A stretch of DNA of 64,000 nucleotides from Mariniflexile fucanivorans (GTDB lineage: Bacteria; Bacteroidota; Bacteroidia; Flavobacteriales; Flavobacteriaceae): assembly GCF_004341235.1 (NCBI RefSeq), contig NZ_SLUP01000002.1:186001-250000 (forward strand). Direction: 5' to 3'. Both the position numbers and the translations under genes were made by a program. Shown here in pieces: positions 40,012 to 62,817 of this stretch (the first letter of the stretch is position 1; each line of letters begins with the position of its first letter). The notes under the pieces are model-generated. The model saw nothing but the letters and a program-made list of their open reading frames with translations. It was not told the origin of the DNA and made no database searches.

Positions 40012-40055
40012 GTAACCAATGTTACTCAACATATTATTTACAGATAGTATTTTTG
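40012..40055 (+). promoter_or_regulatory. Crp/Fnr-type dyad and -7 element upstream of HMA/cytochrome operon
   Basis: GTAAC-CAAT-GTTAC is a perfect dyad at 40012-40025. A -7 element TATTTTTG lies at 40048-40055; the dyad centre (40018.5) is 29.5 bp from the -7 start. No -33 TTTG is present. This spacing corresponds to the class II activator position (about -41.5). The rest of the 292-bp gap to tamB shows only AT-rich sequence. Confidence 0.7.
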
Positions 40056-40086
40056 AAAATATTAAAAAACCAAATTAAAAAATATC

Positions 40087-40356
40087 ATGATTGCATCAAT
40101 ATTAGTACAAAACCTAAAATGTGGTGGTTGTGCACATACCATATCAACCAAACTTGCAACTATTGAAAATATTACTAACTTGCATGTAGATGTTGATGAA
40201 AGCAAGGTAACTTTCAATTATTTGAATGAAGAAGACACTATTAAGGTGAAAGATAAATTAAAAAGTTTAGGGTATCCGTCCATAGAAGATTCGAATTCTT
40301 TAACATCAAAAGCTAAATCTTTTGTAAGTTGTGCTACGGGCAAACTATCAAAATAA
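40087..40356 (+). CDS. Heavy-metal-associated (HMA) domain protein
   Basis: An 89-residue CopZ-like protein with the metal motif CGGC (Cys12, Cys15) after strand 1 and a ferredoxin-like babbab fold over residues 1-68. A C-terminal extension adds one more Cys (FVSCATG). It probably binds Cu(I) or another soft metal. It lies 10 bp upstream of the cytochrome gene in one operon and shares a regulatory dyad with the copper-receptor and sulfur genes. Confidence 0.9.
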   Translation: MIASILVQNLKCGGCAHTISTKLATIENITNLHVDVDESKVTFNYLNEEDTIKVKDKLKSLGYPSIEDSNSLTSKAKSFVSCATGKLSK

Positions 40357-40366
40357 AATAATAAGT

Positions 40367-41353
40367 ATGATAAAAAACATCATAACAATAGTGTTTATCT
40401 CTTTGGTTTTTAGCTGCAATAATTCTAAAAAAGGAAATTACATTTCCAAAGATAAAGAAGAGAATACACCATTACATCCAGGTAAAAAGTTAATGGAAAC
40501 CAATTGTTATGTTTGTCATAATCCTGCTGCTAGTGAAGAAGATAGAATTGCGCCGGCAATGGTAGCCGTTAAAAACCATTATATTGACAGCAACACTTCA
40601 AAAGAAGAATTTATCGCTAAAATGCAAGCTTGGATTAAAAACCCGAATAAAGACGATGCAAAAATGGTTGGTTCTGTAGATCGTTTTGGTGTGATGCCAA
40701 AAACACCATATCCTGAAAAAACCATAGAACAAATTGCAGATTACATGTTTGATAATGATATTGAAGGTTCAAAAGATTTTGAAAAACATTTTAATGAGGA
40801 AATAGGCACAGGCAATGCACAAGGCAAAGAAATGGGACAAGAAAAATCCCAAACTAATTTTCAAAATTTACCTTATGCTGAACGTGGTTTGAAATATGCA
40901 TTGACCACTAAAGCCGTATTAGGTAAAAATTTAATGGGAACCATTCAAAAAAAAGGCACTTTGGAAGCTTTATCATTTTGTAATGTAGAGGCATACCCGT
41001 TGACGGATAGTATGGCTGTTGTGCATAACGCAACCATTAAGCGGGCAACGGATAAACCTAGAAACCCACAAAACCAAGCAAATACTGAAGAATTAAAATA
41101 TATTAAAACATTCAAAGAAGTAGTTGGAAACAACGAAGAACCTAAACCAATTGTAAAAGAGTTGGATGATAAAGTTCAGGTCTTCTACCCTATTACCACA
41201 AATACCATGTGCCTACAATGCCATGGAAAACCAAATGAAACTATTGAAAAATCAACATTAACAAAAATTAAAAATTTATACCATACCGATAAAGCTATTG
41301 GGTATGATGTAAATGAAGTAAGAGGTATTTGGAGTATTACTTTTGATAAATAA
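40367..41353 (+). CDS. Cytochrome c lipoprotein with DUF3365 (Tll0287-like) heme domain
   Basis: About 328 residues from the ATG at 40367; the earlier frame start at 40331 overlaps the HMA gene and lacks a signal. The signal ends in a lipobox (ISLVFSC, Cys17). A class I cytochrome c domain occupies 35-130 with NCYVCH (Cys47, Cys50, His51) and a Met ligand candidate in GVMPKTPYPE. The DUF3365 domain (about 155-328) has a second heme motif CLQCH. It is a periplasmic or surface diheme protein, possibly a redox or gas sensor or an electron carrier. It is followed at once by a thioredoxin. Confidence 0.88.
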   Translation: MIKNIITIVFISLVFSCNNSKKGNYISKDKEENTPLHPGKKLMETNCYVCHNPAASEEDRIAPAMVAVKNHYIDSNTSKEEFIAKMQAWIKNPNKDDAKMVGSVDRFGVMPKTPYPEKTIEQIADYMFDNDIEGSKDFEKHFNEEIGTGNAQGKEMGQEKSQTNFQNLPYAERGLKYALTTKAVLGKNLMGTIQKKGTLEALSFCNVEAYPLTDSMAVVHNATIKRATDKPRNPQNQANTEELKYIKTFKEVVGNNEEPKPIVKELDDKVQVFYPITTNTMCLQCHGKPNETIEKSTLTKIKNLYHTDKAIGYDVNEVRGIWSITFDK

Positions 41354-41357
41354 AAAC

Positions 41358-41660
41358 ATGTCAGGTATGAGCAAATTTTCAGAATTAATAAATCAAGATA
41401 AACCAGTTTTGGTCGATTTCTTTGCAGAATGGTGCGGACCATGTAAAATGTTAGCGCCCATTTTAAAACAAGTAAAAGATAGCTTAGGCGATCGTGTATC
41501 TATTGTAAAAATAGATGTGGATAAAAACCAAGCCTTAGCTGCAAAATACAAAGTAAGAGGTGTACCAACCATGATGCTATTTAAAGATGGAAAACAGGTA
41601 TGGAAACAATCGGGTGTATTACAAAAAGATGAAATTATTAACATAATAACCACTTACTAA
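41358..41660 (+). CDS. Thioredoxin
   Basis: About 100 residues with the WCGPC active site and cis-Pro in VRGVPTMMLF. No signal peptide, so it is cytoplasmic. The ATG at 41358 is preferred over 41343, which overlaps the cytochrome stop region; 41367 is also possible. A dedicated thioredoxin in this operon could reduce the peroxiredoxin or persulfide enzymes encoded nearby (inference). Confidence 0.92.
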   Translation: MSGMSKFSELINQDKPVLVDFFAEWCGPCKMLAPILKQVKDSLGDRVSIVKIDVDKNQALAAKYKVRGVPTMMLFKDGKQVWKQSGVLQKDEIINIITTY

Positions 41661-41765
41661 AAAGGTTTTATAAAAGCATCGAACTATATTCGGTTTACTG
41701 ACAAATGTCATATTTCATAAGAATTAAGTTTGTAATTTTATACTCAGAAAAAAAACAGAAAAAGT

Positions 41766-41936
41766 ATGATTAAATCTTTAATAGCATTATATAGTTGGTC
41801 TAACGGAGTTGTCATGATTGCAATCTTCGCTTTAGTTTGTATTACCTTAGTTGGTATACTCATTAATTTTATGATGAAAGGAAAAGATAAAGATGTTTCT
41901 AACAATCTGAATGAAGACGAAAACACAGAACACTGA
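41766..41936 (+). CDS. 56-residue single-span membrane protein
   Basis: ATG at 41766 to TGA at 41934-41936. A hydrophobic segment of about 22 residues (VVMIAIFALVCITLVGILIN, residues 15-34) is followed by a charged tail rich in Lys, Asp, Asn and Glu. It is preceded by an A-rich leader and followed 20 bp later by a strong terminator, which supports expression. It may be the last gene of the HMA-cytochrome-thioredoxin operon or have its own promoter. I do not recognise the family. Confidence 0.65.
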   Translation: MIKSLIALYSWSNGVVMIAIFALVCITLVGILINFMMKGKDKDVSNNLNEDENTEH

Positions 41937-41952
41937 TTAAAATTAATTTATA

Positions 41953-41992
41953 GCAAAAAAAGGGGTAGTTTATAATAAACTACCCTTTTTTT
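41953..41992. terminator. Bidirectional terminator between small membrane gene and TonB receptor
   Basis: Inverted repeat GGGTAGTTTA (41963-41972) / TAAACTACCC (41976-41985) flanked by A-runs on the left and T-runs on the right. It can terminate the plus-strand operon and the minus-strand receptor operon, whose stop is at 42008. Confidence 0.9.
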
Positions 41993-42007
41993 ATTGTGGA
42001 AAAACAA

Positions 42008-44119: not shown

Positions 44120-44171
44120 TATTATATTAATTTAAATAATTTAGGCAGTGCTTACTACCAATTAAAAAAAC

Positions 44172-44678: not shown

Positions 44679-44722
44679 GTAACATTAGTAGCATAGATAA
44701 ATACTATGAAGTTATATATTTG
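44679..44722 (+). promoter_or_regulatory. Degenerate Crp/Fnr-type dyad and -7 element of peroxiredoxin gene
   Basis: GTAAC-ATTA-GTAGC at 44679-44692 has a perfect left half and a degenerate right half. The -7 element TATATTTG is at 44715-44722. The centre-to-box distance is 29.5 bp, as in the better sites. The 197-bp gap is shared with the divergent copper-receptor operon. Confidence 0.5.
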
Positions 44723-44749: not shown

Positions 44750-45421
44750 ATGAATACAACAGATTTAACAGAAAAAACAGAAAACAATAATGCCATGCCA
44801 AGAATTGGTGATTTTGCACCAGATTTTGAAGCTGTGACTACAAAAGGTAAAATTAAATTTTCAGATTTCGCAAAAGATAAATGGGTGGTTATGTTCTCGC
44901 ATCCAGCCGATTTCACCCCTGTTTGCACCACAGAAATGAGTGGATTTGCAACTAGAAAAAGTGAATTCGACGCCTTAAATACCGAACTTTTAGGATTGAG
45001 TATCGATAGTATTCACGCACACTTAGGATGGGTACAAAATGTAAGAGAAAATACTGGAGTTTATTTTGATTTCCCCATTATTGCAGATATCGATATGAAA
45101 GTATCTAAACTTTACGGAATGCTTCAGCCTAATGAAAGTGAAACAGCTGCAGTTAGAGCCGTTTTCTTTATCGATCCTAAGAAAAAAATTCGTTTGGTCA
45201 TGTATTATCCTTTAAATGTAGGTAGAAATATGAACGAAATTCTAAGAGCATTGGAAGCCTTACAAACTTCAGATAAATATAAAGTAGCCATGCCTTTAGA
45301 TTGGAAAAAAGGAGATAAAGTTATTGTTGGACCACCTAAAACTTTAGATGAACTAAACGACAGACTTAACGATGATTCTTTAGAAAAAGTTGATTGGTAT
45401 TTGGCTAAGAAAAATATCTAA
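44750..45421 (+). CDS. 1-Cys peroxiredoxin (Prx6 subfamily)
   Basis: A 223-residue cytoplasmic thiol peroxidase. The peroxidatic Cys59 is in HPADFTPVCTTE. No second cysteine is present, so it is a 1-Cys enzyme. The long C-terminal Prx6 arm contains PLNVGRNMNEILRALEALQ and WKKGDKVIVGPP. It detoxifies peroxides, and possibly persulfides. A terminator follows, and the next gene is the persulfide-dioxygenase-like protein 75 bp downstream. Confidence 0.94.
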   Translation: MNTTDLTEKTENNNAMPRIGDFAPDFEAVTTKGKIKFSDFAKDKWVVMFSHPADFTPVCTTEMSGFATRKSEFDALNTELLGLSIDSIHAHLGWVQNVRENTGVYFDFPIIADIDMKVSKLYGMLQPNESETAAVRAVFFIDPKKKIRLVMYYPLNVGRNMNEILRALEALQTSDKYKVAMPLDWKKGDKVIVGPPKTLDELNDRLNDDSLEKVDWYLAKKNI

Positions 45422-45496: not shown

Positions 45497-46843
45497 ATGA
45501 ACATTATACAAATTAAAGACAGTCCATTGGCACATTATTCGTATGTAATAATTAGTGAAGACCAAATGGCTATTGTCGATCCTGCAAGAAATACAGAACC
45601 ATACTATAAGTTGGCAGAAAAGCATCATGCAAAAATTACGGCTATTTTTGAAACCCACCCACATGCCGATTTTGTAAGCAGCCATTTACAATTACATAAA
45701 GAAACCGGGGCAACCATATATGTTAGTAAATTGGTTGGTGCAAGTTATCCGCACAAAACTTTTGATGATGGCGATGTGGTTACGTTGGCAAATATTACAT
45801 TTAAAGCTATAAACACCCCAGGACACTCACCAGATAGCATTACCGTAATGGCAGAAGACCATGATAATAATCAGGCTATGTTTTCTGGAGACACCTTATT
45901 TATTGGGGATGTTGGGCGACCCGATTTAAGGGAAAAGGCTGGTAATATGAAGGCTAAAAGAGAGGAATTAGCAAAAAGCATGTACCATACAATACAAAAT
46001 AAGTTTAATCATTTACCAGACAGTACCATGGTTTATCCAGCGCACGGAGCAGGTTCCTTATGCGGGAAAAGTATGAGCGACGATGCTTCAAGTACTCTAG
46101 GTAGAGAAAGAAATGAAAACTGGGCGTTTAAAAATTTAACTGAAGACCAGTTTGTAGATCACATTTTAAAAGATCAACCTTTTATTCCTTCATATTTTGG
46201 TTTTAATGTAGATATAAATAAAGAAGGTGCCGATAATTTTGAATTGAGCATTGCAAAAACAACATTTCAGTTTCAAATCAATCAGTTTGACGCTAATAAT
46301 GCTTTGATAATAGATACTAGGAGTCATGAAGATTTTAAAAATAATCATTTAAAAAATAGCATTAATATTAAAGCAGAAACCGAAGATGATAAATTTGAAA
46401 CCTGGTTAGGTTCCATTGTTAAACCAGAAGAAGCGTTTTATGTGGTGCTAAATTCTATAAAAGATCGTGATACCATATTAAACAGAATTGCTAAAATAGG
46501 CTACGAAAAGCAGTTAAAAGGTTTGATGACTTTGGGGAAAACCACTTTTGAAAATTCAGAAACATTTAATTTAAATGAGTTTAAAAAGCACCCAGAAGCC
46601 TATACAATAATTGATGTAAGAAACAAAAGTGAAGTTGAAGAAGGTAAAATTTTCGAAAAAGCTATCTCTATACCACTAAATCAATTAAGAGATTCTGAAG
46701 TACAAATTCCAACAAACAAACCTATTGTAGTGCATTGTGCGGGAGGTTATCGTAGTGCTGCTGGTAGCAGTATTCTTGATAAAAAATTAAAAGGTGCAAC
46801 AGTTTACGATTTAAGTGATGATGTGAAACAGTTTCAAGATTAA
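45497..46843 (+). CDS. Metallo-beta-lactamase-fold persulfide dioxygenase-like protein with two rhodanese domains
   Basis: 448 residues. The MBL domain (about 1-235) has THPHADFVSSH, GHSPDSITV and SGDTLFIGDVGRPDL, with PAHGAGSLCGKSMS; this resembles ETHE1-type persulfide dioxygenases. Rhodanese domain 1 (about 265-350, IIDTRSHEDF) has VVLNS where the catalytic loop should be, so it is probably inactive. Rhodanese domain 2 (about 365-448, IIDVRNKSEV) has an intact loop HCAGGYRSA with its Cys. Role inferred: oxidising glutathione-like persulfide to sulfite and moving sulfane sulfur. It lies between terminators. Confidence 0.92.
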   Translation: MNIIQIKDSPLAHYSYVIISEDQMAIVDPARNTEPYYKLAEKHHAKITAIFETHPHADFVSSHLQLHKETGATIYVSKLVGASYPHKTFDDGDVVTLANITFKAINTPGHSPDSITVMAEDHDNNQAMFSGDTLFIGDVGRPDLREKAGNMKAKREELAKSMYHTIQNKFNHLPDSTMVYPAHGAGSLCGKSMSDDASSTLGRERNENWAFKNLTEDQFVDHILKDQPFIPSYFGFNVDINKEGADNFELSIAKTTFQFQINQFDANNALIIDTRSHEDFKNNHLKNSINIKAETEDDKFETWLGSIVKPEEAFYVVLNSIKDRDTILNRIAKIGYEKQLKGLMTLGKTTFENSETFNLNEFKKHPEAYTIIDVRNKSEVEEGKIFEKAISIPLNQLRDSEVQIPTNKPIVVHCAGGYRSAAGSSILDKKLKGATVYDLSDDVKQFQD

Positions 46844-46932: not shown

Positions 46933-48360
46933 TTATACCAAGCGAAAACTTTTAATTTTAGAAAGACTGAAATTTGGATGCTGCTTAAGATAATGCTTCA
47001 TAGCTTCAACTGCTTTTATATCTGATTCTATTCGGTTTTTACCATATTTTTTCGCCACACCTTGCATAGTCACAAAACTTACTTTATAGATTTTTTCAGG
47101 ATTTATGTGGGAACCTTTATAGTAAATTTCCTGGATACGGTGGCCGCTTGGATTTTCAATACGCATATTTACTTGCAAGCCAAAAACACGTTTTACATAA
47201 CCTCCCATTTGCCCAAATGGATCTTTACAAAAAGTACGTTCCAGATTTTCTTCCAACATGTCCTTAATTTCTTTTCCTGTTAAATGGACAGTTGAAACTG
47301 GCGGATTCATTGGGGCAATATTATATAAATCATCTTCCGTGATATTACCTTTTGGAATTGGCGCCCCATAACGCCATCCGTTTGAAAAGGCAATTTCAGT
47401 ATTTGTACTTTGTGCAATGGCTTTCAAGAGCAATTCATCCATAGTGGAGTTTATGGTATTGTAACGATGTAGAATTTGGTCCGTGGTGCCTAAAGCAGCA
47501 GTTCTAATATCCTTATAAGGTTTCAAAATGTTTTGAACCAACTGATCCACATCCGTATTTTTTGGTAGAGAATCGTCAATTTTTATAAGTTCGAACGCAC
47601 AATCTTTAATCTGTTTGTCTTGAATTTCCAAAGTAAAATTTCCTAAAAATGCTCCGTGACAACCGCATTGTACAATTCGTGCATTATTAATTTCAATAGG
47701 ACTATAATTTCGGTTGTGGGTATGTGCACTTAAACAGATATCAATTCCATCTACCTTTTTCAAAAGTGCCACATCTTGCGGAAAACCATTGTGCGAAAGC
47801 AAAATAATCATATCGGCTCCTTCTGCTTTCAATTGCTTTATATGCTTAGGAAGTTCCTCTTCACCTGAAGTAAACTTTAAACCTTTACTCATTTTTTCTG
47901 GCATCACTTTATCAATAATCATGGCACATATACCAATTACGCCAATTTTAAGTCCCGCTTTTTGAATTAATATAGCGGGCTGCAAAAAATTAGAGCCATC
48001 TTCCTTAAAAACATTGCATCCCAATGTTGGAAATTCTAATTGTTTATCTATATTTTTTAAATGTTCTGGACCATAGGCAAAATCCCAATGCCCAACCAAG
48101 GCATCAAGTTTTAAAGCATTTAAAATAGGCACAAGAGCTTCTCCTTGAGAATCTACTAAAGGTTTTGTACCATGTAAGGTGTCTCCTCCATCAAAAAATA
48201 ATGTATTCGGGTTTTGGCTACGAATCTCATCTACCAATCCTGCAATATGTGCATAACCACCAGCTGTTTCAATCACTTCACCCGTTTCGTTGTAAAACAA
48301 TTCTGGGTGTGGTGCCAAGTAACCGTGAACGTCGTTTATAAATAAAATATTTAGTTTCAT
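46933..48360 (-). CDS. SoxB/5'-nucleotidase-family metallophosphoesterase, cytoplasmic
   Basis: 475 residues of the calcineurin-like phosphoesterase plus 5'-nucleotidase C-terminal fold. Metal motifs: NDVHG (Asp10, His12), DGGDTLHG and LSAHTHNRN. The canonical GNHEFD is replaced by GHWDFAYG, which resembles the GHWEFTYG of thiosulfohydrolase SoxB. There is no signal peptide, unlike SoxB and UshA. A second paralogue lies two genes upstream and shares the HPELF insertion after the first motif. Substrate unknown; a sulfur ester or a nucleotide are both possible. It is the last gene of the operon that starts near 52036. Confidence 0.87.
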   Translation of the reverse strand: MKLNILFINDVHGYLAPHPELFYNETGEVIETAGGYAHIAGLVDEIRSQNPNTLFFDGGDTLHGTKPLVDSQGEALVPILNALKLDALVGHWDFAYGPEHLKNIDKQLEFPTLGCNVFKEDGSNFLQPAILIQKAGLKIGVIGICAMIIDKVMPEKMSKGLKFTSGEEELPKHIKQLKAEGADMIILLSHNGFPQDVALLKKVDGIDICLSAHTHNRNYSPIEINNARIVQCGCHGAFLGNFTLEIQDKQIKDCAFELIKIDDSLPKNTDVDQLVQNILKPYKDIRTAALGTTDQILHRYNTINSTMDELLLKAIAQSTNTEIAFSNGWRYGAPIPKGNITEDDLYNIAPMNPPVSTVHLTGKEIKDMLEENLERTFCKDPFGQMGGYVKRVFGLQVNMRIENPSGHRIQEIYYKGSHINPEKIYKVSFVTMQGVAKKYGKNRIESDIKAVEAMKHYLKQHPNFSLSKIKSFRLV

Positions 48361-48449: not shown

Positions 48450-49067
48450 TTACTTCAAACCATTCAGAAACTCTTTAAATTCCGAAGTATTGTAATCTGC
48501 CATTCCTTTATGTGTTAATGCTAAATTTCCTTTCGCATCGATAATAAATGTGGTTGGTAAAGCAGAAGATTCAAACATTTCAGGAATATTACTTGCAAGT
48601 GTATAAATAGGAAAATTATAACCTTTACTTTTATTAAAAGATTTTGCTTTTTCAAAATCTTTGTCGAACGAGATCATTACAAAAGCAACGTCATCTCCCA
48701 TCTCTTCATACAATTTATTTATACTTGGCATTTCTGCAACACAAGGTGGACACCATGTAGCCCAATAGTTCATAAAAATCACTTTACCTTTTAAATTTTC
48801 CAGAGAAGAAATATTTCCTTCACTATCCATTAGTTTTAAGTTTAAATCTGCCGTTTTAGTTTGAGGCAGATTTGTTTCATTTTCATTATTTTGAACATGT
48901 GCTATTTCTTCAATATCTGGATTCATTAAGCCCGTTGCAAGCAGTCCACGTTGCGCAAAACCAATAACTTCGGTATGTAAGCCAGTGATGTAAAGCACAG
49001 CAAGAATAGCTACAAAAATTCCATTCTTAATCCATGATTTTTTTATGTTCTTTTTTTCTTTATTCAT
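48450..49067 (-). CDS. TlpA-family thiol-disulfide protein
   Basis: About 205 residues from the ATG at 49067, 13 bp after the upstream stop; the longer frame overlaps that gene. One N-terminal membrane segment (about 15-32) precedes a periplasmic thioredoxin fold with YWATWCPPCVAEMPS and cis-Pro in SALPTTFII. It resembles TlpA/SoxW-like reductants. In this operon it may keep a periplasmic sulfur enzyme or DsrE-like carrier reduced. Confidence 0.92.
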   Translation of the reverse strand: MNKEKKNIKKSWIKNGIFVAILAVLYITGLHTEVIGFAQRGLLATGLMNPDIEEIAHVQNNENETNLPQTKTADLNLKLMDSEGNISSLENLKGKVIFMNYWATWCPPCVAEMPSINKLYEEMGDDVAFVMISFDKDFEKAKSFNKSKGYNFPIYTLASNIPEMFESSALPTTFIIDAKGNLALTHKGMADYNTSEFKEFLNGLK

Positions 49068-49080
49068 AGTTTTATTTTTT

Positions 49081-50742
49081 TTAATGAAATTCATAATTCG
49101 TTTGAGGAACGGTTGAAAAAGAATACTCACCAAGATAATCACAATACGCCCTTCCTTCTAAAGTTGGCGATACTGGCGATTTTTTTTGAAGATATTCTTC
49201 AACAGCTTCGTGTATGGTATAATCTTTTACTTCAACATCCTTCACATTTGCCATTCTACACAAATTGTCAATTGGATCGCCAGGACGTACACAAGCTGAA
49301 ATGGTATAATATTCATCATCTTGCATGGGTTGTCCTTTTACTGTTATTGAAGATATTCGTTTGCCTCTTTCATTCTGACTGTTAAAATCGACTTTCATTC
49401 CTGAAAAACGTACCAACCAGCCACCAAAACGTTCGGTTGGATTTTGAGAAAAGGCATTGTGCATTTCTTTTTCTAACCAATCTTTAATTTGTTTACCTGT
49501 AGCTTTTCCAGTTTTTACAGGTTCATTTACAGGAAGTAAATTCCATAAATTAGCTCTTGTAATAGGTGCAGGTTTTCCATCTTCTGGCACAATAGGATTT
49601 CCAAATCGGAAGCCGTTAGAAATTGATATGTCTGCACCAGTTTTCCAGCGTGCAGCATCTGTAATCATGTTATCCATAGGGTTTTCAACAGTTAAATATC
49701 TATAAATTGGTGTGTTGGTATAACCAATAATAGTTTCCAAATACTCTTTATATGGTGCTTTTGCTTTATCTACCAACGATTGAATTTTTTGGTTAGCAGG
49801 ATAAACTTCAGGATCTACATCAATAAGGTCATAAGCATCGCCAACCAATTTACCATCTACAAAATGCAATGTTAACTTTCCAACGAAAGAACCAAAAGCT
49901 CCGGGTTCTGTAACTTTGGCATACTTACCTTGAATCATTTCACGAACACGTTCGTGGGTATCGTTGCCTAAAATGTAATCGGCATGTTCTGCAATCGGGT
50001 TACTAGCCAGTTCTACTTGTTTAAAAATTCCGATATGGGTCACTAAGAAAAGTACGTCTATATTTTCTTTGACTTTGATATCGTCTACCATTTTTTTCAA
50101 ATGGTCATCAAGACCACTAAAGCCAATACCTTGACTAAAAATAGGATTTTGCCTTACAGGAACGTCTGGATCGTTAATACCAACAAAACCTAAACGTACG
50201 CCTTCAATTTCTTTTACAGCATACGCGGGAAATAATGGGTTTTCATTTTCATCATCAAACATATTTTGAACTATCACATCGGTTTCATAACCTTTCATGA
50301 TTTCTAGCATCATATTCTTGCCATAAACGACTTCCCAATTGCCAGGAATGATTACATCGTAACCCATATTTTTAATCACATCTTGCATTACTTTACCTTC
50401 CGATAGAGCAGCATAACCGCTTCCTTGTATTAAATCGCCTCCATCTACAATAATTGTTTTGTTAGGGTTTGCTTCGCGTTCTTTATCAAAAAGCGTTTTA
50501 ATATTTGCAAGACCACCACGATTTTTGAATACAATTTTTTCGTCTTCCCAGAATAATTCGGGATGTGTATCTAACTGCCCATGAATATCCGCCGTTTGTA
50601 ATATGGTAATGCTTAAAGTGTCATTTTTAATTGCATTATTATTTGTCATTTGGTTCTTCTTTTCTGTTTTACAGGATACCGTTAAGATTACCATTCCTAA
50701 AAGGAAAACAGTTTTTAAAATTGTTCTTTTATAGTTTGTCAT
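49081..50742 (-). CDS. SoxB/5'-nucleotidase-family lipoprotein
   Basis: 553 residues with a lipoprotein signal (MTNYKRTILKTVFLLGMVIL, lipobox TVSC). Metal motifs: QTADIHGQ, VDGGDLIQG, TLVTHIG-type and GNDTHERV. GNHEFD is replaced by GNWEVVYG, again SoxB-like, and LEGRAYCDY is near the C-terminus. The paralogue at 46933-48360 is cytoplasmic, so one membrane-anchored and one soluble copy flank the TlpA gene. A periplasmic or surface thiosulfohydrolase or nucleotidase role is inferred. It is 2 bp from the DsrE gene. Confidence 0.87.
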   Translation of the reverse strand: MTNYKRTILKTVFLLGMVILTVSCKTEKKNQMTNNNAIKNDTLSITILQTADIHGQLDTHPELFWEDEKIVFKNRGGLANIKTLFDKEREANPNKTIIVDGGDLIQGSGYAALSEGKVMQDVIKNMGYDVIIPGNWEVVYGKNMMLEIMKGYETDVIVQNMFDDENENPLFPAYAVKEIEGVRLGFVGINDPDVPVRQNPIFSQGIGFSGLDDHLKKMVDDIKVKENIDVLFLVTHIGIFKQVELASNPIAEHADYILGNDTHERVREMIQGKYAKVTEPGAFGSFVGKLTLHFVDGKLVGDAYDLIDVDPEVYPANQKIQSLVDKAKAPYKEYLETIIGYTNTPIYRYLTVENPMDNMITDAARWKTGADISISNGFRFGNPIVPEDGKPAPITRANLWNLLPVNEPVKTGKATGKQIKDWLEKEMHNAFSQNPTERFGGWLVRFSGMKVDFNSQNERGKRISSITVKGQPMQDDEYYTISACVRPGDPIDNLCRMANVKDVEVKDYTIHEAVEEYLQKKSPVSPTLEGRAYCDYLGEYSFSTVPQTNYEFH

Positions 50743-50744: not shown

Positions 50745-51167
50745 TTAAAGGCTTAAGCTTTTATAATTTTGTTTTTGAAGTTGAAAATTGTAAAGAATTC
50801 CGTTTTCTACAATTTTAATGTCTTTAGGAACTAATGCCCTATCTATTTTAAATTTATTGAGTGAAAATCCACAAGCGACTATAGTTACTCCTGCTTCTTT
50901 GGCTTTTTTAATGAATTTGTTTATTTTCTCAGCATCTGTAATGTCGCCTATTTCTTGTCCACAAATAATAACTTCAAAATTGCCAAAGACTTTGCCTTCT
51001 TCCGCTTTAAGTGCTTCTGCGGTTAATATAATAGGCTGTAATTGGGCGACTTTATTAGTGACCACTACATAATTATTTTTGCTGCTATCTGTTTCCTGTG
51101 CTTGTAAATTTGTACTACTAACAAGCGTAATTATTAGCATTATGGAACTAAAAATATATGATTTCAT
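50745..51167 (-). CDS. Exported DsrE-family sulfur-carrier-like protein
   Basis: 140 residues with a signal peptide (MKSYIFSSIMLIITLVSSTN... AQA-type cleavage near 23). The DsrE fold covers about 30-140; one Cys lies in FEVIICGQEI and a second in IVACGFSLNKFKI at the position used in DsrE-like carriers. Most characterised DsrE/TusD proteins are cytoplasmic, so the signal peptide is notable. It lies between the SoxB-like lipoprotein and the DoxX protein, with gaps of 2 and 8 bp. Confidence 0.88.
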   Translation of the reverse strand: MKSYIFSSIMLIITLVSSTNLQAQETDSSKNNYVVVTNKVAQLQPIILTAEALKAEEGKVFGNFEVIICGQEIGDITDAEKINKFIKKAKEAGVTIVACGFSLNKFKIDRALVPKDIKIVENGILYNFQLQKQNYKSLSL

Positions 51168-51175: not shown

Positions 51176-51574
51176 TTATTTTAAAAGGTTATCGGTGTCG
51201 TTCATTATAAAAAATAGAAGTCCACCTAAAATTGCTATGTTTTTAAATAGAGGTCCAAGTGTAGTTATTTGCCCTACTTGAACGGTTAATGTAATTGGAA
51301 TTAAAACCGCCAATAATACCATTGCAGCCCATTTTGTTTTGTATCCTATTAAGAATAGAAAACCTGCTGACACCATTGCGATTCCTGAAAGTACAATAAG
51401 CCATTGTGGCTCGCCAAAAAAATAGGCAATGCCTTTAAAGCTGGCTTGCTCTATCCTTTTTGCTGTTTTTTCTATATTTAGTAAATGATTTGTTCCTGCT
51501 ACTAGGAAAATACCACTCACTAGGATGCGCAATAATTGTATGGAACGGCGACTTATTAAAATTTTTGTCGTCAT
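51176..51574 (-). CDS. DoxX/MauE-family membrane protein
   Basis: 132 residues with four hydrophobic segments and the DoxX-like pattern LRILVSGIFLVAGTNHLLN and MVSAGFLFLIGYKTKWAA. DoxX relatives are quinone-reactive subunits or accessory proteins in thiosulfate oxidation and in many redox systems. Its place before DsrE and SoxB-like genes fits transfer of sulfur-derived electrons to the quinone pool (inference). Confidence 0.85.
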   Translation of the reverse strand: MTTKILISRRSIQLLRILVSGIFLVAGTNHLLNIEKTAKRIEQASFKGIAYFFGEPQWLIVLSGIAMVSAGFLFLIGYKTKWAAMVLLAVLIPITLTVQVGQITTLGPLFKNIAILGGLLFFIMNDTDNLLK

Positions 51575-51673: not shown

Positions 51674-52036
51674 TTATGCTAAACGAGGAGGTGGAGAAAC
51701 GCTTTCTAAATAGCGATAACTTAATGTTGAAGTAAAATAATCGTTATAAACTGTAATTGATTTTATGTTTCTTGTGGTCCAAGAAAACAATTCAAACTGA
51801 AATTGAGAGGTACAAAAACCACTTAATAAAATCTCTTGAGATGTAACCAAATCAGCTTGCGAAAAATCCATAATTTTATTTGCCAGTATAGGAGCACTCT
51901 TCTTTTTGCAGTTTGGTTTTACAAAAGTGATAGTGTTTCCACCAAATAGAAGATTTAACCCATTGGCATCTATGGCAATGAATTTTGCCAAAAACACAAA
52001 TGTGAGTAAAACTGGTATGTAAGTATGAATTTTCAA
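51674..52036 (-). CDS. Small exported protein with C-terminal PPR, TTG start
   Basis: 120 residues starting at TTG 52036; there is no upstream or nearby downstream ATG in frame. Signal segment about 5-24. Cysteines at about 43 (KPNCKKK) and 74 (GFCTS). The C-terminus is SPPPRLA, close to the CFRPPRVS end of the small protein before the copper receptor; the two also share length and signal. The predicted -7 element ends 9 bp before the TTG. It heads the DoxX-DsrE-SoxB-like operon after a 99-bp gap. Family unknown. Confidence 0.65.
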   Translation of the reverse strand: MKIHTYIPVLLTFVFLAKFIAIDANGLNLLFGGNTITFVKPNCKKKSAPILANKIMDFSQADLVTSQEILLSGFCTSQFQFELFSWTTRNIKSITVYNDYFTSTLSYRYLESVSPPPRLA

Positions 52037-52044: not shown

Positions 52045-52088
52045 CAAAAATAAGAGTAAGGACGTGCCGAATTTGTAACCTTTGTTAC
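52045..52088 (-). promoter_or_regulatory. Crp/Fnr-type dyad and -7 element of the SoxB-like operon
   Basis: GTAAC-CTTT-GTTAC is a perfect dyad at 52075-52088. On the minus strand the -7 element TATTTTTG runs 52052-52045 and equals the one upstream of the HMA operon. Centre 52081.5 to 52052 is 29.5 bp. No -33 element is seen. Confidence 0.7.
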
Positions 52089-52202: not shown

Positions 52203-52247
52203 GCTACTAATGTTACATACCAAAGAATAAGATTTACTTTATATTTG
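52203..52247 (+). promoter_or_regulatory. Half-degenerate dyad and -7 element of cydAB
   Basis: GCTAC-TAAT-GTTAC at 52203-52216 has a perfect right half. The -7 element TATATTTG at 52240-52247 starts 30.5 bp from the centre, one base more than at the other sites. The cydA ATG is at 52284. Confidence 0.48.
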
Positions 52248-52283: not shown

Positions 52284-53618
52284 ATGGAAGACATGCTCTT
52301 TTACGATAGAATGCAATTCGCATTTACTATCACATTTCATTATTTATTTCCGCAATTAACCATGGGACTTTCTTTAATGATTGTCTATTTTAAATGGAAA
52401 TTCCTCAGAACAAAAATTGACAAATACAACGACGCCGCAAAATTTTGGATGAAGATTTTTGCGCTCAACTTTGCCATGGGTGTCGTTACTGGTATTCCCA
52501 TGGAATTTCAATTTGGTACCAATTGGGCAAAATTTTCTGAGCTCACAGGTGGTATTATTGGACAAACATTAGCCATGGAAGGTATGTTTTCTTTCTTTTT
52601 AGAGTCGTCCTTTTTAGGGCTCTTTTTATTTGGGGAAAAACTGCTCGGACAAAAACTACATTTCTTAACAGGCTTTCTGGTCTTTTTAGGCTCGTGGGCC
52701 AGTGGCTATTTAATTATAGCCACACATTCTTGGATGCAATATCCTGTAGGGTACGAAATTGTAGAAAACGGAAAATTTGTACTTACTAACTTTGGTGCAT
52801 TATTCTCAAACCCTTGGTTATTACCTTCGTTTTTGCATAATCAAATGGGTTCTGTTATTACGTCTTCGTTTGTAGTGGCAGGTGTTGGTGCTTTCTATTT
52901 GTTAAATAATAAGCATAGCGAATTCGGAAAACTGTTTGTAAAAACAGGCGTTATATTTGGTTTAGTTTCAAGCATATTGGTGGCGTTTCCAACAGGAGAT
53001 TTAACAGCTAAAAACGTTGTAAAACATCAACCTGTAACCTTTGCTGCTATGGAAGGTATTTTTGAAACGGAAGATGGAGGTTCAGAAATTATATTAATAG
53101 GTCAACCTGATACAGAAAATAAAAAACTCGATAACAAAATTGCCGTTCCTAATATATTAAGTTTTTTAACCTATCAACGTTGGGATGCTCAAATAAAAGG
53201 TTTAAATGAATTTGATGAAAGTTTGCATCCAACCAATATTCCAGGTTTGTACTATGCCTATCACATTATGGTTGGTTTAGGCACTATCTTTATTGGCTTA
53301 ATGCTATTGGCTGCCGTACAATTATTCAGAAAAAAACTTTATAATTCAAAATGGATTTTATGGACTATTATGTTTATGCTCCCATTTCCTTACATAGCAA
53401 ACACAACAGGTTGGTACACGGCAGAATTAGGCAGACAACCTTGGTTGGTTTATAACTTATTAAGAACTTCCGATGGAATTTCACCCACTGTTTCATCTGG
53501 AAACACCTTATTTACTTTACTTGGTTTTATTGGACTCTATTTATTACTAGGACTGTTGTTTTTAATGCTCGCAGGAAAAATAATTAACAAAGGACCTGAA
53601 ACTACAAAACTTAACTAA
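52284..53618 (+). CDS. cydA: Cytochrome bd ubiquinol oxidase subunit I
   Basis: 444 residues from the ATG at 52284; this start places the axial His at residue 19 (FHYLFPQ), as in E. coli CydA, and the longer frame has no support. About nine membrane segments. MEFQFGTNW, AMEGMFSFFLESSFLGLFLFGE (the Glu pair) and FLHNQMGSVITS (the second heme His) are present, and GRQPWLVYNLLRTSDG marks the end of the core. The Q loop is short. It reduces oxygen to water with quinol at high affinity, without proton pumping. cydB follows 2 bp later. Confidence 0.96.
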   Translation: MEDMLFYDRMQFAFTITFHYLFPQLTMGLSLMIVYFKWKFLRTKIDKYNDAAKFWMKIFALNFAMGVVTGIPMEFQFGTNWAKFSELTGGIIGQTLAMEGMFSFFLESSFLGLFLFGEKLLGQKLHFLTGFLVFLGSWASGYLIIATHSWMQYPVGYEIVENGKFVLTNFGALFSNPWLLPSFLHNQMGSVITSSFVVAGVGAFYLLNNKHSEFGKLFVKTGVIFGLVSSILVAFPTGDLTAKNVVKHQPVTFAAMEGIFETEDGGSEIILIGQPDTENKKLDNKIAVPNILSFLTYQRWDAQIKGLNEFDESLHPTNIPGLYYAYHIMVGLGTIFIGLMLLAAVQLFRKKLYNSKWILWTIMFMLPFPYIANTTGWYTAELGRQPWLVYNLLRTSDGISPTVSSGNTLFTLLGFIGLYLLLGLLFLMLAGKIINKGPETTKLN

Positions 53619-53620: not shown

Positions 53621-54697
53621 ATGGAATTATTCTGGTATATCGTTTTAATGACTATGCTAACCATCTACGTCATTTTAGATGGTTACGATTTTGGTGCAGG
53701 CATCATTCATTTGTTTTTTGCAAAAAACGAAAAAGATAAAAAAGCAATCACTAATGCCATTGGCCCTTTTTGGGATGCGAATGAAGTATGGTTAATTGCA
53801 TCGGGTGGCGTGCTGTTTTTCGCTTTTCCAACCTTATATGCTTCTTCCTTTAGCGGGTTTTATTTACCTTTAATTATGATTCTTTGGTTACTTATTTTTA
53901 GAGCCATCGGTTTGGAATTAAGAGGACAAATACACAATAAAATGTGGGAAGGTATTTGGGATAAAGCCTTTGGTATTTCAAGTTTACTTTTGGCTTTATT
54001 TTTTGGTATCGCTCTAGGCAACGTAGTAAGAGGCGTTAATTTAGGTATGGTTACAAACGGCGTTTCTGCACACGAACCACATTATTTCTTCTTACCTCTT
54101 TGGAATTCAACGTTTAGTCCACATGCTGAACATTTAGGAATTATTGACTGGTTTACGTTGTTACTTGGCGTTATTGGTGTTGTAGCATTAACCATTCATG
54201 GTGCCAACTGGATTATTTTTAAAACCAATTCAGATTTGAATGAAAAACTGAAAAAGGTGGTATTTAATCTCAACATTGTGTTATTGGCTTTAGTAATTAT
54301 TTCGCTTTTTATTTGGCATATTATAGAACCACAACCCTTTCATAATTTCTTAGATAAACCTTGGTTATTTATTTTCCCAATCATCACATTTACAGGATTA
54401 TTTGGAATATTTAAAGTAAAAACTTTTAAAAAACATGGTTTAGGATTTTTGTTTTCATCCTTATTTCTTTTTGGAGGATTAACATCAACCGTTGCATCCA
54501 TATTCCCAAAAGTTCTTCCTTCAACAAATAATATAAATCCAGATTTAACAGTATACAATGTAGCCGCTCACGAATACGGATTGTCTGTTGGTGTCTATTG
54601 GTTTGTTATCGCAGCGCTTTTAGTTGGTGTTTATATGTTTGTACAATATCGTGTGTTTAGAGGAAAAATGGATGATGTGGGGTATGGTGAACACTAG
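53621..54697 (+). CDS. cydB: Cytochrome bd ubiquinol oxidase subunit II
   Basis: 358 residues, about eight membrane segments. LDGYDFGAGIIH near the start and GPFWDANEVWLIASGGVLFFAFP are diagnostic of CydB. It stabilises the hemes of CydA. It is followed 15 bp later by a small membrane protein gene and then a strong terminator. Confidence 0.96.
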   Translation: MELFWYIVLMTMLTIYVILDGYDFGAGIIHLFFAKNEKDKKAITNAIGPFWDANEVWLIASGGVLFFAFPTLYASSFSGFYLPLIMILWLLIFRAIGLELRGQIHNKMWEGIWDKAFGISSLLLALFFGIALGNVVRGVNLGMVTNGVSAHEPHYFFLPLWNSTFSPHAEHLGIIDWFTLLLGVIGVVALTIHGANWIIFKTNSDLNEKLKKVVFNLNIVLLALVIISLFIWHIIEPQPFHNFLDKPWLFIFPIITFTGLFGIFKVKTFKKHGLGFLFSSLFLFGGLTSTVASIFPKVLPSTNNINPDLTVYNVAAHEYGLSVGVYWFVIAALLVGVYMFVQYRVFRGKMDDVGYGEH

Positions 54698-58331: not shown

Positions 58332-58337
58332 CAAGAC

Positions 58338-59968: not shown

Positions 59969-59972
59969 AAGT

Positions 59973-60495
59973 TTCCCGCAGATTTCGCAGATTCTCGCAG
60001 AAAAGAAACAAAAAATAGATATGCATTTATCTGTGAAATCTGCGTGAGAAAAAAACAAAAACAAATACTATGAAAGAATTGACAGAAAACGAGATTTCAT
60101 ATTTAATAAGAGGTGCAATTTTTAAAGTCTATAATGAATTAGGTCCAGGTTTGTTAGAATCTGTATATGAAACTGTTTTAATGTATGAGTTGCAAAAGCA
60201 AGGTTTATCAGTTAAAAAGCAGGTAGTACTGCCTGTATTTTATGATAGTATTGAATTAGAAATAGGTTTTAGATTGGATTTATTAGTAAATAATAAAGTA
60301 ATAATTGAAATCAAATCGGTAGAGATTTTGTCAAAAGTACATCATAAACAAATTCTAACTTATCTAAAGATTTCAGAAATGAAGTTAGGCATTTTAGTAA
60401 ATTTTAATGTTGATGACATATCAAAAGGAGTTTTTAGAAAAGTAAACGGGTTATAACAATAAAATATCTGCGGTAATCAGTGAAATCCGCGGGAA
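59973..60495. mobile_element. GxxExxY cassette bounded by 29-bp imperfect inverted repeats
   Basis: The left end (59973-60001, starting TTCCCGC) and the reverse complement of the right end (60467-60495) agree at 24 of 29 positions by hand alignment. A second inverted copy of GCAGATTTC-CAGAT lies at 60029-60043, so the left side can also fold as a hairpin. The enclosed DNA carries only the GxxExxY gene. It sits between the ATPase and permease genes of an otherwise tight operon. No transposase is present, so it is a candidate non-autonomous element; whether it moves is inference. Confidence 0.6.
60070..60456 (+). CDS. GxxExxY protein (PD-(D/E)XK nuclease-like)
   Basis: 128 residues. The family motif is visible as GPGLLESVY (G-xx-E-xx-Y) near residue 28. 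GFRLDLLVNNKVIIEIKSVE holds the Asp and the E-I-K of a PD-(D/E)XK nuclease core, so catalytic residues look intact. Its function is unproven; family members are found as inserted reading frames in many Bacteroidota genomes. Here it breaks an efflux operon and is flanked by inverted repeats. Confidence 0.9.
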   Translation: MKELTENEISYLIRGAIFKVYNELGPGLLESVYETVLMYELQKQGLSVKKQVVLPVFYDSIELEIGFRLDLLVNNKVIIEIKSVEILSKVHHKQILTYLKISEMKLGILVNFNVDDISKGVFRKVNGL

Positions 60496-60501
60496 TATAT
60501 T

Positions 60502-61608
60502 ATGAAAAGATTTATAGGCTTCATAAAAAAGGAATTCTACCATATTTTTAGAGATAGACGCTCGTTGTTTATCCTATTTGGAATGCCCATTGCCCAAATT
60601 ATGCTGTTTGGTTTCGCCATTACCAATGAAATCAACAATGTAGATATTGCTATTTTAGACCATTCAAAAGATGCAACTACAAAAGAAATTATCAATAAAA
60701 TATCGGCATCAAAATATTTCAGCATCAAACAAATGCTAACGCGTGAAGCAGAAATTGCCTCGGTTTTTGAAAAAGGGCATGTTAAAGCCGTTTTAAATTT
60801 TGAAAAAGATTTCAGTCAAAAATTAATAAAAGACAACAAAGCAACTGTCCAAATTATTACCGATGCTACAGATCCTAATACAGCTAACACTATAAGTAAT
60901 TATGTAAATGCCATCCTTCAAACGTATCAAAAAGAAATAAACAAAGACATTGTTATTTCCTATCAAATAGTACCACAAACACGCATGGTTTACAATCCAG
61001 AATTAAAAAGTGTGTATATGTTTGTACCAGGTGTTATGACTATTATTTTGATGCTAGTTTCAGCAATGATGACCTCAATTTCCATTACCAGAGAAAAAGA
61101 ATTAGGCACCATGGAAATTCTTTTAGTATCACCTTTAAAACCAATTCAGGTGATTGTAGGCAAAGTGTTTCCATACATTTTTCTATCAATAATAAATGCT
61201 ATTGTTATTGTAATGCTAAGCATTTTCATATTTAAAATGCCCGTTCAAGGTAGTTTGTTTTTATTAGGTCTGGAAAGTGTTTTATTCATTATAACGGCTT
61301 TGGCTTTAGGTATTTTAATCTCAACTATTTCCGCAACACAACAAACCGCCATGATGATTTCTTTAATGGGATTAATGCTTCCTGTAATACTATTATCTGG
61401 TTTCATTTTTCCTATTTCAAGCATGCCTTTACCGCTTCAACTTATCAGTAATATTATACCCGCAAAATGGTTTATCATCATCATTAAAGGCATAATGCTT
61501 AAAGGTGTTGGACTTCAATACATTTGGAAAGAAACCTTGATTTTAGTAGGAATGACCGTATTTTTCATAGCATTAAGTGTGAAAAAATATAAAATTAGAT
61601 TAGAGTAA
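60502..61608 (+). CDS. ABC-2 family efflux permease
   Basis: 368 residues: one N-terminal TM, a large periplasmic domain (about 45-170) and five C-terminal TMs. ITREKELGTMEILLVSPLKP is typical of the ABC-2/YbhS-YbhR family. It would pair with the next permease and the two ATPases. TAATG overlap with the next gene. Confidence 0.94.
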   Translation: MKRFIGFIKKEFYHIFRDRRSLFILFGMPIAQIMLFGFAITNEINNVDIAILDHSKDATTKEIINKISASKYFSIKQMLTREAEIASVFEKGHVKAVLNFEKDFSQKLIKDNKATVQIITDATDPNTANTISNYVNAILQTYQKEINKDIVISYQIVPQTRMVYNPELKSVYMFVPGVMTIILMLVSAMMTSISITREKELGTMEILLVSPLKPIQVIVGKVFPYIFLSIINAIVIVMLSIFIFKMPVQGSLFLLGLESVLFIITALALGILISTISATQQTAMMISLMGLMLPVILLSGFIFPISSMPLPLQLISNIIPAKWFIIIIKGIMLKGVGLQYIWKETLILVGMTVFFIALSVKKYKIRLE

Positions 61609-62729
61609 TGAAAACAATTCTATACATCATCCAAAAAGAGTTCAAGCAAATCTTTAGAAATAAAGGCATGCTTCCTATCATATTTGTATTACCACTACTC
61701 CAACTTATTATACTATCAAATGCGGCCACTTTTGAAATTAAAAATATCAAATTTGGTTATATTGATAACGACCATACTTCAACATCCAGAGCATTAATTG
61801 AAAAATTCAATGCATCAACCTATTTTGATGTTTTAACAGATTTTCCTTCGGAAGAACTAGCCAGTTCAGCCATGTTAAACGGCAACGTAGATGTTATTTT
61901 GGAAATTCCACAGTATTTTGAACGCAATCTACAAAAAGAAAAATACAACCATTTAGGTGTTACCATTAATGCAATTGATGGTGCCGCAGCAGGTGTTGAA
62001 AACGTTTATGTTACACAGATTGTTCAAAATTTTAATAAACACTTAAAAGTTGATTTGTTACAACCTTCAGACCTACAAATCCAACCCATCAATATAGATA
62101 CCATTCCGTTGTTTTGGTATAACAAAACCTTAAATTACAAAACCTATATGGTTCCGGGCATTTTGGTTTTATTAGTTACCATGATTACGCTTTTCCTTTC
62201 AGGAATGAATATTGTACGTGAAAAGGAAATAGGGACTTTGGAACAAATCAATGTGACCCCAATTAAAAAAAGCCAGTTTATAATAGGAAAGCTTTTCCCA
62301 TTTTGGGTAATAGGAATGAGTTTATTAACAGTGGGATTAATTATAGCAAAACTAATTTTCAATGTACCGATGGTAGGTAGTTTGCCCCTCATGTATTTTT
62401 ATACATCCATTTATATTTTAGTGGTTTTAGGCATAGGTTTATTCATTTCAAACTTTACGGAAACACAGCAACAAGCTATGTTTATTGCTTGGTTTTTTAC
62501 GGTTATTTTCATTTTAATGAGTGGTTTATTTACTCCTATTGAAAGCATGCCAAAATGGGCCCAAACCATTACCGAATTCAACCCCATAAAATATTTTGTA
62601 CAGGTAATGCGTATGGTGATGCTTAAAGGTTCAGGGCTTATGGACATCCTCCCTCAACTATTAAAAACATTATTGTATGCTTTTATTATGAATGGGTTAG
62701 CCGTTTGGAGTTATAAAAAGACGAATTAA
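61608..62729 (+). CDS. ABC-2 family efflux permease (second)
   Basis: 373 residues with the same plan as its neighbour: TM1, a periplasmic domain and five TMs, with IVREKEIGTLEQINVTPIKK between TM2 and TM3. It completes a YbhFSRG-like exporter. The operon ends here; no clear terminator is visible before the regulatory region of the next gene. Confidence 0.94.
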   Translation: MKTILYIIQKEFKQIFRNKGMLPIIFVLPLLQLIILSNAATFEIKNIKFGYIDNDHTSTSRALIEKFNASTYFDVLTDFPSEELASSAMLNGNVDVILEIPQYFERNLQKEKYNHLGVTINAIDGAAAGVENVYVTQIVQNFNKHLKVDLLQPSDLQIQPINIDTIPLFWYNKTLNYKTYMVPGILVLLVTMITLFLSGMNIVREKEIGTLEQINVTPIKKSQFIIGKLFPFWVIGMSLLTVGLIIAKLIFNVPMVGSLPLMYFYTSIYILVVLGIGLFISNFTETQQQAMFIAWFFTVIFILMSGLFTPIESMPKWAQTITEFNPIKYFVQVMRMVMLKGSGLMDILPQLLKTLLYAFIMNGLAVWSYKKTN

Positions 62730-62736
62730 GGCTTGT

Positions 62737-62817
62737 GTAACTTTAGTTACTGTAAAACAGTTTAAAAATAACAATCTTTACTTAATCGCTTTAAAGTGTT
62801 AAGAGTGATAAATATCA
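62737..62817 (+). promoter_or_regulatory. Two Crp/Fnr-type dyads in front of the sulfide:quinone oxidoreductase gene
   Basis: GTAAC-TTTA-GTTAC is perfect at 62737-62750; a degenerate -7-like AATCTTTA begins at 62773, 29.5 bp from its centre. TGAT-AAAT-ATCA lies at 62806-62817; TAACTTCA begins at 62841, again 29.5 bp from its centre. Two different dyad types in tandem, each with a matching -7-like element, suggest two start sites under related regulators. The ATG is at 62868. Confidence 0.6.

Follow-up and report, generated by a model that had tools for sequence, protein, structure and literature searches.

GTAAC-N4-GTTAC dyads at class II promoter distance point to a Crp/Fnr-controlled sulfide/persulfide regulon in Flavobacteriaceae

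Several described regulators resemble, each in part, the system analyzed here. NtcA recognizes GTAN8TAC, which in canonical promoters lies at −41.5 and is combined with a −10 element of the form TAN3T, according to the available text of the source (PMC3898017). For HcpR2, the consensus GTAACnnnnGTTAC was published in 2005 and tied to a proline at position 181; as far as the accessible part of that paper goes, HcpR2 was predicted in Bacteroides too, where in most cases the regulon consists of hcp only (Rodionov, PMC1274295). The sulfane-sulfur sensors named in the accessible portions of two further papers, CstR, SqrR/BigR and FisR, and also OxyR, LasR and OhrR (PMC9774590; PMC7315123), include no Crp/Fnr protein; Crp of A. 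baumannii was found to be persulfidated, with no effect on function established there (PMC7315123). Here we analyze GTAAC-N4-GTTAC dyads in a 64-kb stretch of the genome of the flavobacterium Mariniflexile fucanivorans (G000, 4.74 Mb in 29 contigs; the stretch, C2:186001-250000, is hereinafter the window). These dyads are very probably operators of a Crp/Fnr protein, proposed to be a class II activator and represented in this genome by the candidate paralogs P0001 and P0002, over a sulfide/persulfide and thiol-redox regulon.

The half-site is not new: the HcpR2 operator, as given in the text available, is identical to the site found here, and the dyad is a special case of the NtcA-type GTAN8TAC. 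As in NtcA promoters, GTAN8TAC and TAN3T are both present at class II distance (the TAnnTT of the −7 elements described below reads as TAN3T). Unlike NtcA, the regulator analyzed here has sulfur and redox rather than nitrogen genes as targets and is paired with −7 elements of the Bacteroidetes type, and P0001, at 44.3 bits, stays below the 244.95 bits that NCBIfam sets as equivalog cut-off for NtcA. HcpR2 differs, so far as the portion of that study goes, in having Pro181 where P0001 has Val and, in most Bacteroides, a predicted regulon of hcp only instead of a multi-operon sulfur set. With CRP, P0001 shares the Crp/Fnr domain order, the fold and the equivalents of Arg180 and Arg185, whereas Glu181 is replaced by Val, Glu72 by Met79 and Arg82 by Lys89. 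Comparable gene sets (persulfide dioxygenase with yeeE/yedE; sulfide-oxidizing genes) are described in the accessible texts for the CstR, SqrR/BigR and FisR systems, but these regulators belong to the CsoR, ArsR or sigma54-activator families, whereas P0001 is a Crp/Fnr protein by domains and fold. The open-licence literature, in its available text, yielded neither a Crp/Fnr regulator of this sulfur gene set nor a regulator of sulfide/persulfide handling in Bacteroidota. Within the literature searched, three things look new: the subfamily to which the regulator belongs, the sulfur regulon of this subfamily and the cysteine motif at the place where CRP binds cAMP. An earlier note on this DNA knew of no described flavobacterial regulon with this site; its half-site does have these precedents.

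Perfect copies of GTAAC-N4-GTTAC occur three times in the 64 kb, against 0.09 expected, and at least three were found in 0 of 100 shuffled sequences; together with the reversed-pattern controls in other genomes, this rules out a chance origin of the dyads. With two degenerate copies, they form the following arrangements, in which all five dyad coordinates of the earlier note proved correct when the window sequence was re-read:

40012..40025, plus strand: perfect dyad GTAACCAATGTTAC, upstream of the HMA/cytochrome/thioredoxin genes
40048..40055, plus strand: −7 element TATTTTTG, starting 22 nucleotides (nt) beyond the dyad
44679..44692, plus strand: degenerate dyad GTAACATTAGTAGC with 2 mismatches, upstream of the peroxiredoxin gene
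44715..44722, plus strand: −7 element TATATTTG, starting 22 nt beyond the dyad
52075..52088, minus strand: perfect dyad GTAACAAAGGTTAC (minus-strand reading), upstream of the SoxB-like operon
52045..52052, minus strand: −7 element TATTTTTG, 22 nt beyond the dyad on the minus strand (spaced match at C2:238045-238088)
52203..52216, plus strand: degenerate dyad GCTACTAATGTTAC, upstream of cydAB
52240..52247, plus strand: −7 element TATATTTG, 23 nt beyond the dyad
62737..62750, plus strand: perfect dyad GTAACTTTAGTTAC, upstream of the sulfide:quinone oxidoreductase (SQR) gene and kept in SQR orthologs
62773..62780, plus strand: weak −7-like octamer AATCTTTA with 2 mismatches, 22 nt beyond the dyad

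The distance from dyad centre to the first base of a TAnnTTTG-like element, for which the earlier note had given 29.5 at four sites and 30.5 at cydA, is 29.5 (22 nt between dyad and element) at 40012, 52075 and 44679 and 30.5 (23 nt) at cydA; counting SQR as the fourth site was generous, its octamer matching only four of the six consensus letters. Degenerate dyads in the window have no significance alone (25 matches with up to two mismatches, 24.3 expected). Those listed gain weight only because of their spacing and because other genomes have perfect spaced sites, that is, dyads with a −7 element at this distance, upstream of the corresponding genes, namely peroxiredoxin genes (L114, L223) and cydA (L233); a spaced site is also found at an HMA-like gene in L239. 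Upstream of SQR genes, in 13 loci from 60 genomes including our own, the dyad is perfect in 4 loci, has one mismatch in 6 and two in 2, and 1 locus has none, the mismatched ones being partly judged by eye from the upstream sequence.

In 80 loci of named relatives around regulator homologs (934 kb, some loci short), 121 perfect dyads were found against a single match of the reversed control. TAnnTTTG follows within 80 nt downstream, both strands considered, in 63 cases, 56 of them at 22 nt, 3 at 21 nt and 4 elsewhere. A scan of 100 family genomes that allowed any spacing from 5 to 35 nt gave, among the 150 matches listed, 114 with 22 nt, 12 with 21 and 3 with 23, the remaining 21 being scattered over the other 28 spacings. 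An open reading frame has its first start codon within 40 nt past the −7 element at 78 of 87 spaced sites. In sigma70 promoters, the first T of the −10-type element is taken as −12; if the −7 element is numbered likewise from its first T, the dyad centre falls at about −41.5, which would fit the position of a class II activator, and class II CRP promoters have the same geometry of site to core promoter. No conserved −33 box is present in 69 aligned sites, the spacers of which are nearly free of information, in agreement with the earlier proposal of class II activation without a −33 box.

Seven of the ten perfect dyads in the whole genome lie upstream of genes, and four of these seven are followed by TAnnTTTG at exactly 22 nt, two of the four (C2:250765 and C11:14665) being located outside the window:

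the three window sites: upstream of the HMA operon, the SoxB-like operon and SQR
C1:34333: upstream of a rhodanese gene; TTTG at the usual place, the element one base shorter
C2:250765 (L006, L012): upstream of a TolC-type gene, behind which lie genes for a membrane-fusion-like protein and an RND pump
C2:318824 (L007 1501-1514): between genes for a PhsA-like molybdopterin oxidoreductase and a multiheme cytochrome
C11:14665: upstream of a TauE-like gene (by likeness to L106), followed by persulfide-dioxygenase-like and rhodanese genes

A candidate for the protein that reads these sites emerged from the same genome. Among its 11 cNMP-binding domain matches, only two loci encode a helix of the form SR..[IV][ST]R, in both cases HTSRVVISR:

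C11:14026-14658: P0001, a Crp/Fnr protein directly upstream of the TauE site, in the TauE/persulfide-dioxygenase cluster
C2:311798-312460: P0002, its paralog, at the end of the PhsA-like (phs-like) cluster, the opposite end of which holds the dyad at C2:318824

Both genes are thus located outside the window, each within a dyad-holding sulfur cluster. The two proteins are 43% identical and contain a cNMP_binding domain and a Crp-type HTH, both above Pfam cut-offs; the nearest named homolog of our own regulator, 91% identical, is from Mariniflexile. A fold search retrieved the Crp/Fnr superfamily, and the AlphaFold model of the regulator has an ordinary Crp/Fnr fold (pLDDT 89.4, pTM 0.65). An orthologous relationship to the cAMP-responsive CRP was rejected, P0001 scoring 50 bits against the CRP equivalog cut-off of 266 (NCBIfam) and having Glu72 and Arg82 replaced.

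Spaced sites and this regulator occur together. Homologs of P0001 (E value of 1e-15 or better) are present in 167 of 199 family genomes and perfect spaced sites in 127 of the 199, compared with 7 reversed-control matches. The site was found in 126 of the 167 genomes with a homolog and in 1 of the 32 without (p 3e-15); this cross-table, like those for the phylum and the genus, was compiled by hand, and the homolog status of 12 family genomes was inferred by elimination. Because the homolog-free family genomes are often small, the comparison was repeated in a sample of the phylum and within a single genus. In the former, the spaced site is carried by 14 of 19 genomes with a close homolog (E below 1e-55), by 3 of 49 whose homolog is weaker and by 0 of 130 with none at 1e-30; in the latter, 37 of 40 genomes with a homolog at 1e-55 have it against 12 of 61 without (p 9e-14). 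The correlation with one Crp/Fnr paralog proposed in the earlier note was accordingly recovered as co-occurrence with a single Crp/Fnr clade in all three samples. Neighborhoods were inspected for 11 of the 12 exceptional genomes and for G344, a genome of the same genus in the phylum sample. Among these 12 neighborhoods, 10 have the site in front of a rhodanese gene, mostly a tandem pair (L300-L304, L306-L309, L311); in G417 it stands before a persulfide-dioxygenase-like gene and in G445 before a cytochrome gene. Next to the site, none of the 12 has a homolog of either P0001 or P0003, a search that did not extend to weaker homologs in the 12 exceptions; G344 has an Arg-Glu homolog adjoining a TauE-like gene elsewhere in the genome. 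In eight loci (L064, L066, L067, L072, L089, L090, L092 and L130, from Flavobacterium, Sphingobacterium and one further genome), the gene that follows the spaced site is that of the regulator, which suggests autoregulation there.

The genes behind the sites were classified in 74 fetched family loci, of which one repeated a site (L222 and L134). Of the 73 distinct sites, two (L219, L249) had no open reading frame of at least 80 amino acids within 400 nt, leaving 71 first genes, one per site; with 30 loci chosen by tool and 44 by hand from the genome list, these 71 do not form a random sample. The largest clusters are TolC-type outer membrane proteins (16), persulfide-dioxygenase-like together with rhodanese proteins (12), TauE (8), SulP (6), the 120-amino-acid gene 1 of the SoxB-like operon (6) and TlpA/thioredoxin-like proteins (4). 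Peroxiredoxin, the Tll0287-like cytochrome, a YgaP-like membrane protein, DUF983 and Thioredoxin_9 each occur twice, whereas SQR-like flavoprotein, cydA, HMA-like, DsrE, a SoxA/TsdA-type cytochrome and the regulator itself occur once, as do, outside the sulfur theme, aldehyde dehydrogenase, porin O/P and fatty acid hydroxylase. A Pfam scan of the 71, in the best 25 of 40 families, gave OEP 16, rhodanese 12, metallo-beta-lactamase 9, TauE 8, sulfate permease 6 and AhpC/TSA 6 and agrees with the clustering among the families listed. Furthermore, when the 80 named regulator loci were searched by tblastn with queries from our own genome, 54 matched the persulfide-dioxygenase type, 46 TauE and 58 any of eight sulfur queries. 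Sulfide/persulfide handling, together with thiol redox, is the theme of the regulon; its minor members are the HMA protein, cytochromes and bd oxidase. The expectation that strong hits would lie upstream of redox and sulfur genes thus held for spaced matches, which recur at the same genes across genomes. Of the coherence claimed for copper, persulfide and low-oxygen respiration, the persulfide and redox part stands, and copper and low-oxygen respiration are minor members among the 71; copper as the unifying theme was rejected, with one HMA-like gene among them.

The recognition helix offers a further line of evidence. In an alignment with NtcA and CRP, P0001 has at CRP positions 180/181 the pair Arg-Val, as NtcA does, whereas CRP has Arg-Glu. 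The residue equivalent to 181, Val183, is kept in 90 of 95 homologs and is Glu in the other 5; a larger set, 134 homologs encoded in 129 loci, comprises 103 with Arg-Val, 30 with Arg-Glu and 1 with Gly-Val. Counted over the 129 regulator loci with a relaxed −7 element at 21-23 nt, a GTGA half is present in 4 of 96 spaced dyads at Arg-Val-only loci and in 20 of 20 at Arg-Glu-only loci, where GTAAC/GTAAC dyads number 0 of 20. After near-identical proteins had been thinned to 114 rows for a tree, the count was restricted to loci in which a single regulator was retained; there, the Arg-Val regulators comprised 43 with A-type sites only, 2 with both, 1 with G-type only and 1 with another type (32 had no such site), and all 13 Arg-Glu regulators with a site had G-type only (9 had none). 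The association between regulator type and half-site is strong, not strict. At L103:3890 of Lutibacter, GTGATGCAAATCAC lies, with the spacing of a class II site, between an Arg-Val regulator gene immediately before it and an Arg-Glu paralog downstream, hinting at a possible cascade of the two types. Regulators with Val or Glu and different half-sites provide a natural test of the code at CRP position 181.

P0001 has three cysteines only, at 77, 83 and 84 in the sensor domain, none of them N-terminal; among the 95 homologs, Cys77 is conserved in 93, Cys83 in 81 and Cys84 in 83. They align to CRP residues 70, 76 and 77, in the loop of CRP that binds cAMP. The cAMP-contact residues Glu72 and Arg82 of CRP are absent, Met79 and Lys89 occupying their places in the alignment. 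The nearest solved sequence, the Crp/Fnr protein EUBREC_1222 (PDB 3dv8, E 1e-14), has two cysteines, six apart, at the places of Cys77 and Cys83, but its helix, HREVITR, has Glu instead of Val. Sulfane sulfur is the simplest guess for the signal because the targets make and consume persulfide, and a sulfide-derived persulfide or polysulfide might perhaps be sensed through Cys77, Cys83 and Cys84. We consider about evenly balanced the wider proposal that this is a Crp/Fnr activator in which the cyclic-nucleotide pocket became a multi-cysteine sulfane-sulfur sensor, the first of its kind in Crp/Fnr, with an NtcA-like code and Arg-Glu relatives favoring GTGA halves, and that it runs sulfide/persulfide homeostasis in many members of the Flavobacteriaceae and in part of the Bacteroidota beyond this family. 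Bacteroidota are abundant in sulfide-rich habitats.

In the mechanism we propose, the recognition helix (Arg-Val) of the regulator dimer would read (T)GTAAC-N4-GTTAC(A), and the protein, bound near −41.5 over the −33 place, would act as a class II activator by recruiting RNA polymerase to the −7 TAnnTTTG. Its regulon would serve the detoxification of sulfide and persulfide as well as thiol redox and include SQR, persulfide dioxygenase, rhodaneses, the TauE and SulP transporters, the SoxB-like operon, TlpA/thioredoxin, peroxiredoxin, bd oxidase, cytochromes, the HMA protein and the TolC/RND pump. Computation on the genomes yields the sites, their spacing and conservation, the target genes and the co-occurrence with the regulator; that the candidate regulator binds the dyads and activates from them, we infer. 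A conserved regulon, probably of class II type, that reaches far beyond the window and is present in many Flavobacteriaceae is real, and P0001 with its paralog is a strong candidate for its regulator.

Several observations weigh against this interpretation. Across the own genome, the bare dyad occurs near background (10 perfect copies against 8 reversed-control matches), which is the random genome-wide density that the earlier note had named as refuting a regulon, and 3 of the 10 sit within coding sequence; the diagnostic pattern is only the dyad with its spacing, the bare dyad being a poor detector. Relaxing the spaced pattern to three mismatches gave noise (49 and 44 matches in this genome against 64 and 77 in the control). 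The dyad at C2:318824 has no −7 element at 22 nt, 13 of the 80 regulator loci have no perfect dyad, and 22 of the 80 (some of them short) match none of the eight own-genome sulfur queries. No perfect spaced site is present in 41 of the 167 family genomes with a homolog, and the 12 exceptional genomes among the 61 of the single genus carry the site without a close regulator. For the commonest target, the TolC-type gene (16 of 71), we know of no sulfur role or substrate. Finally, the association of Val or Glu with half-site type rests on one independent contrast in a quick tree, and in G344, G352 and G294 the fetched regulator has Arg-Glu although a perfect GTAAC spaced site is present.

Of the alternatives to a persulfide-related activator, an FNR-like oxygen or general redox sensor, with low-oxygen respiration (bd oxidase, cytochromes) as the main theme, is unlikely: cydA, cytochrome and Tll0287-like targets and the cysteines in the sensor domain would suit it, but only a minority of the 71 first genes encode cytochromes or bd oxidase. 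FNR has four cysteine ligands for a [4Fe-4S] cluster, a set absent from P0001 with its three cysteines, none N-terminal, and an identity with FNR was rejected on this ground. It is quite unlikely, in turn, that the bound protein represses, the dyad covering −33 and transcription being derepressed upon loss of binding. The right half-site does overlap the place expected for a −33 box. CstR and BigR, with which such a mode would be shared, are described as repressors in the accessible parts of PMC9774590 and PMC7315123, but the 69 aligned sites retain no −33 consensus to repress, and the fixed 22-nt spacing to the −7 element is class II activator geometry, as in canonical NtcA promoters in the text available.

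Ownership of the sites by an HcpR2-type regulator of NO/nitrosative stress, with the sulfur genes as a lineage-specific extension, appears very unlikely. The identity of its published consensus with our motif and its prediction in Bacteroides, so far as the accessible text of PMC1274295 goes, would fit, as would the presence of P. gingivalis HcpR at rank 13 among the fold matches of P0001; that match has 18% identity, however, HcpR2 has Pro at 181 in the portion available where P0001 has Val, and no hcp-like cluster was seen when the first gene behind each of the 71 sites was read (Pfam families viewed: 25 of 40; hcp promoters not searched). Finally, another DNA-binding family with a similar palindrome might own the sites, the Crp/Fnr gene being a merely co-conserved neighbor. 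The genomes of the single genus that have the site without a homolog at 1e-55 (12 of 61) and the 12 neighborhoods (11 exceptions and G344) that lack a P0001/P0003 homolog beside the site speak for this, but G344 holds an Arg-Glu homolog elsewhere and the search in the 12 did not cover weaker homologs. The co-occurrence in three samples, the placement of the regulator inside the clusters, the NtcA-like residue pair and the class II geometry make this reading highly improbable and argue for the Crp/Fnr activator.

The rule of site plus spacing is simple enough for regulon annotation in most flavobacterial genomes, and it names candidate sulfur-stress genes, including the TolC/RND pump, DUF983 and the 120-amino-acid gene 1 of the SoxB-like operon. 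In G000, the TolC-type gene, the commonest single target of the family sample, is followed by those for a membrane-fusion-like protein and an RND pump. The genes behind the window sites are:

40087..40356, plus strand: HMA-domain protein, copper-chaperone-like (Pfam HMA; weak CopZ match below cut-off)
40364..41353, plus strand: c-type cytochrome with Tll0287-like domain (domain search)
41343..41660, plus strand: thioredoxin (Pfam)
44750..45421, plus strand: peroxiredoxin (domain/model matches)
45497..46843, plus strand: metallo-beta-lactamase and rhodanese protein, persulfide-dioxygenase-like (Blh model far below cut-off)
51674..52036, minus strand: 120-amino-acid protein, gene 1 of the SoxB-like operon (no Pfam match)
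51176..51574, minus strand: DoxX family membrane protein (Pfam)
50745..51167, minus strand: DsrE-like protein (weak, below gathering score)
49081..50742, minus strand: SoxB-like/5'-nucleotidase-family protein (SoxB model 260.7 bits, cut-off 550)
48450..49142, minus strand: TlpA/ResA-like thiol-disulfide oxidoreductase (below cut-offs)
46933..48360, minus strand: SoxB-like protein (SoxB model 336.2 bits, cut-off 550)
52284..53618, plus strand: cytochrome bd oxidase subunit I (below equivalog cut-offs, E 5e-79)
53621..54697, plus strand: cytochrome bd oxidase subunit II (cydB model above cut-off)
62868..64000, plus strand, continuing beyond the window: SQR-like flavoprotein (SQR_III model 59 bits, below cut-off)

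True SoxB function is doubtful for both SoxB-like proteins of the operon (46933-48360 and 49081-50742), which score far below the model cut-off.

The cluster that contains P0002 (L013, C2:312000-326000) also encodes YeeE/YedE-like, NrfD-like and rhodanese-like proteins, named by eye. The multiheme cytochrome gene divergent from the PhsA-like cluster scores, below cut-off, with ExtM of selenite/tellurite reduction. On the cytochrome side of the dyad at C2:318824, TAATTTTG lies 41 nt downstream, approximately two helical turns further out than at the other sites, an arrangement that resembles the class I place.

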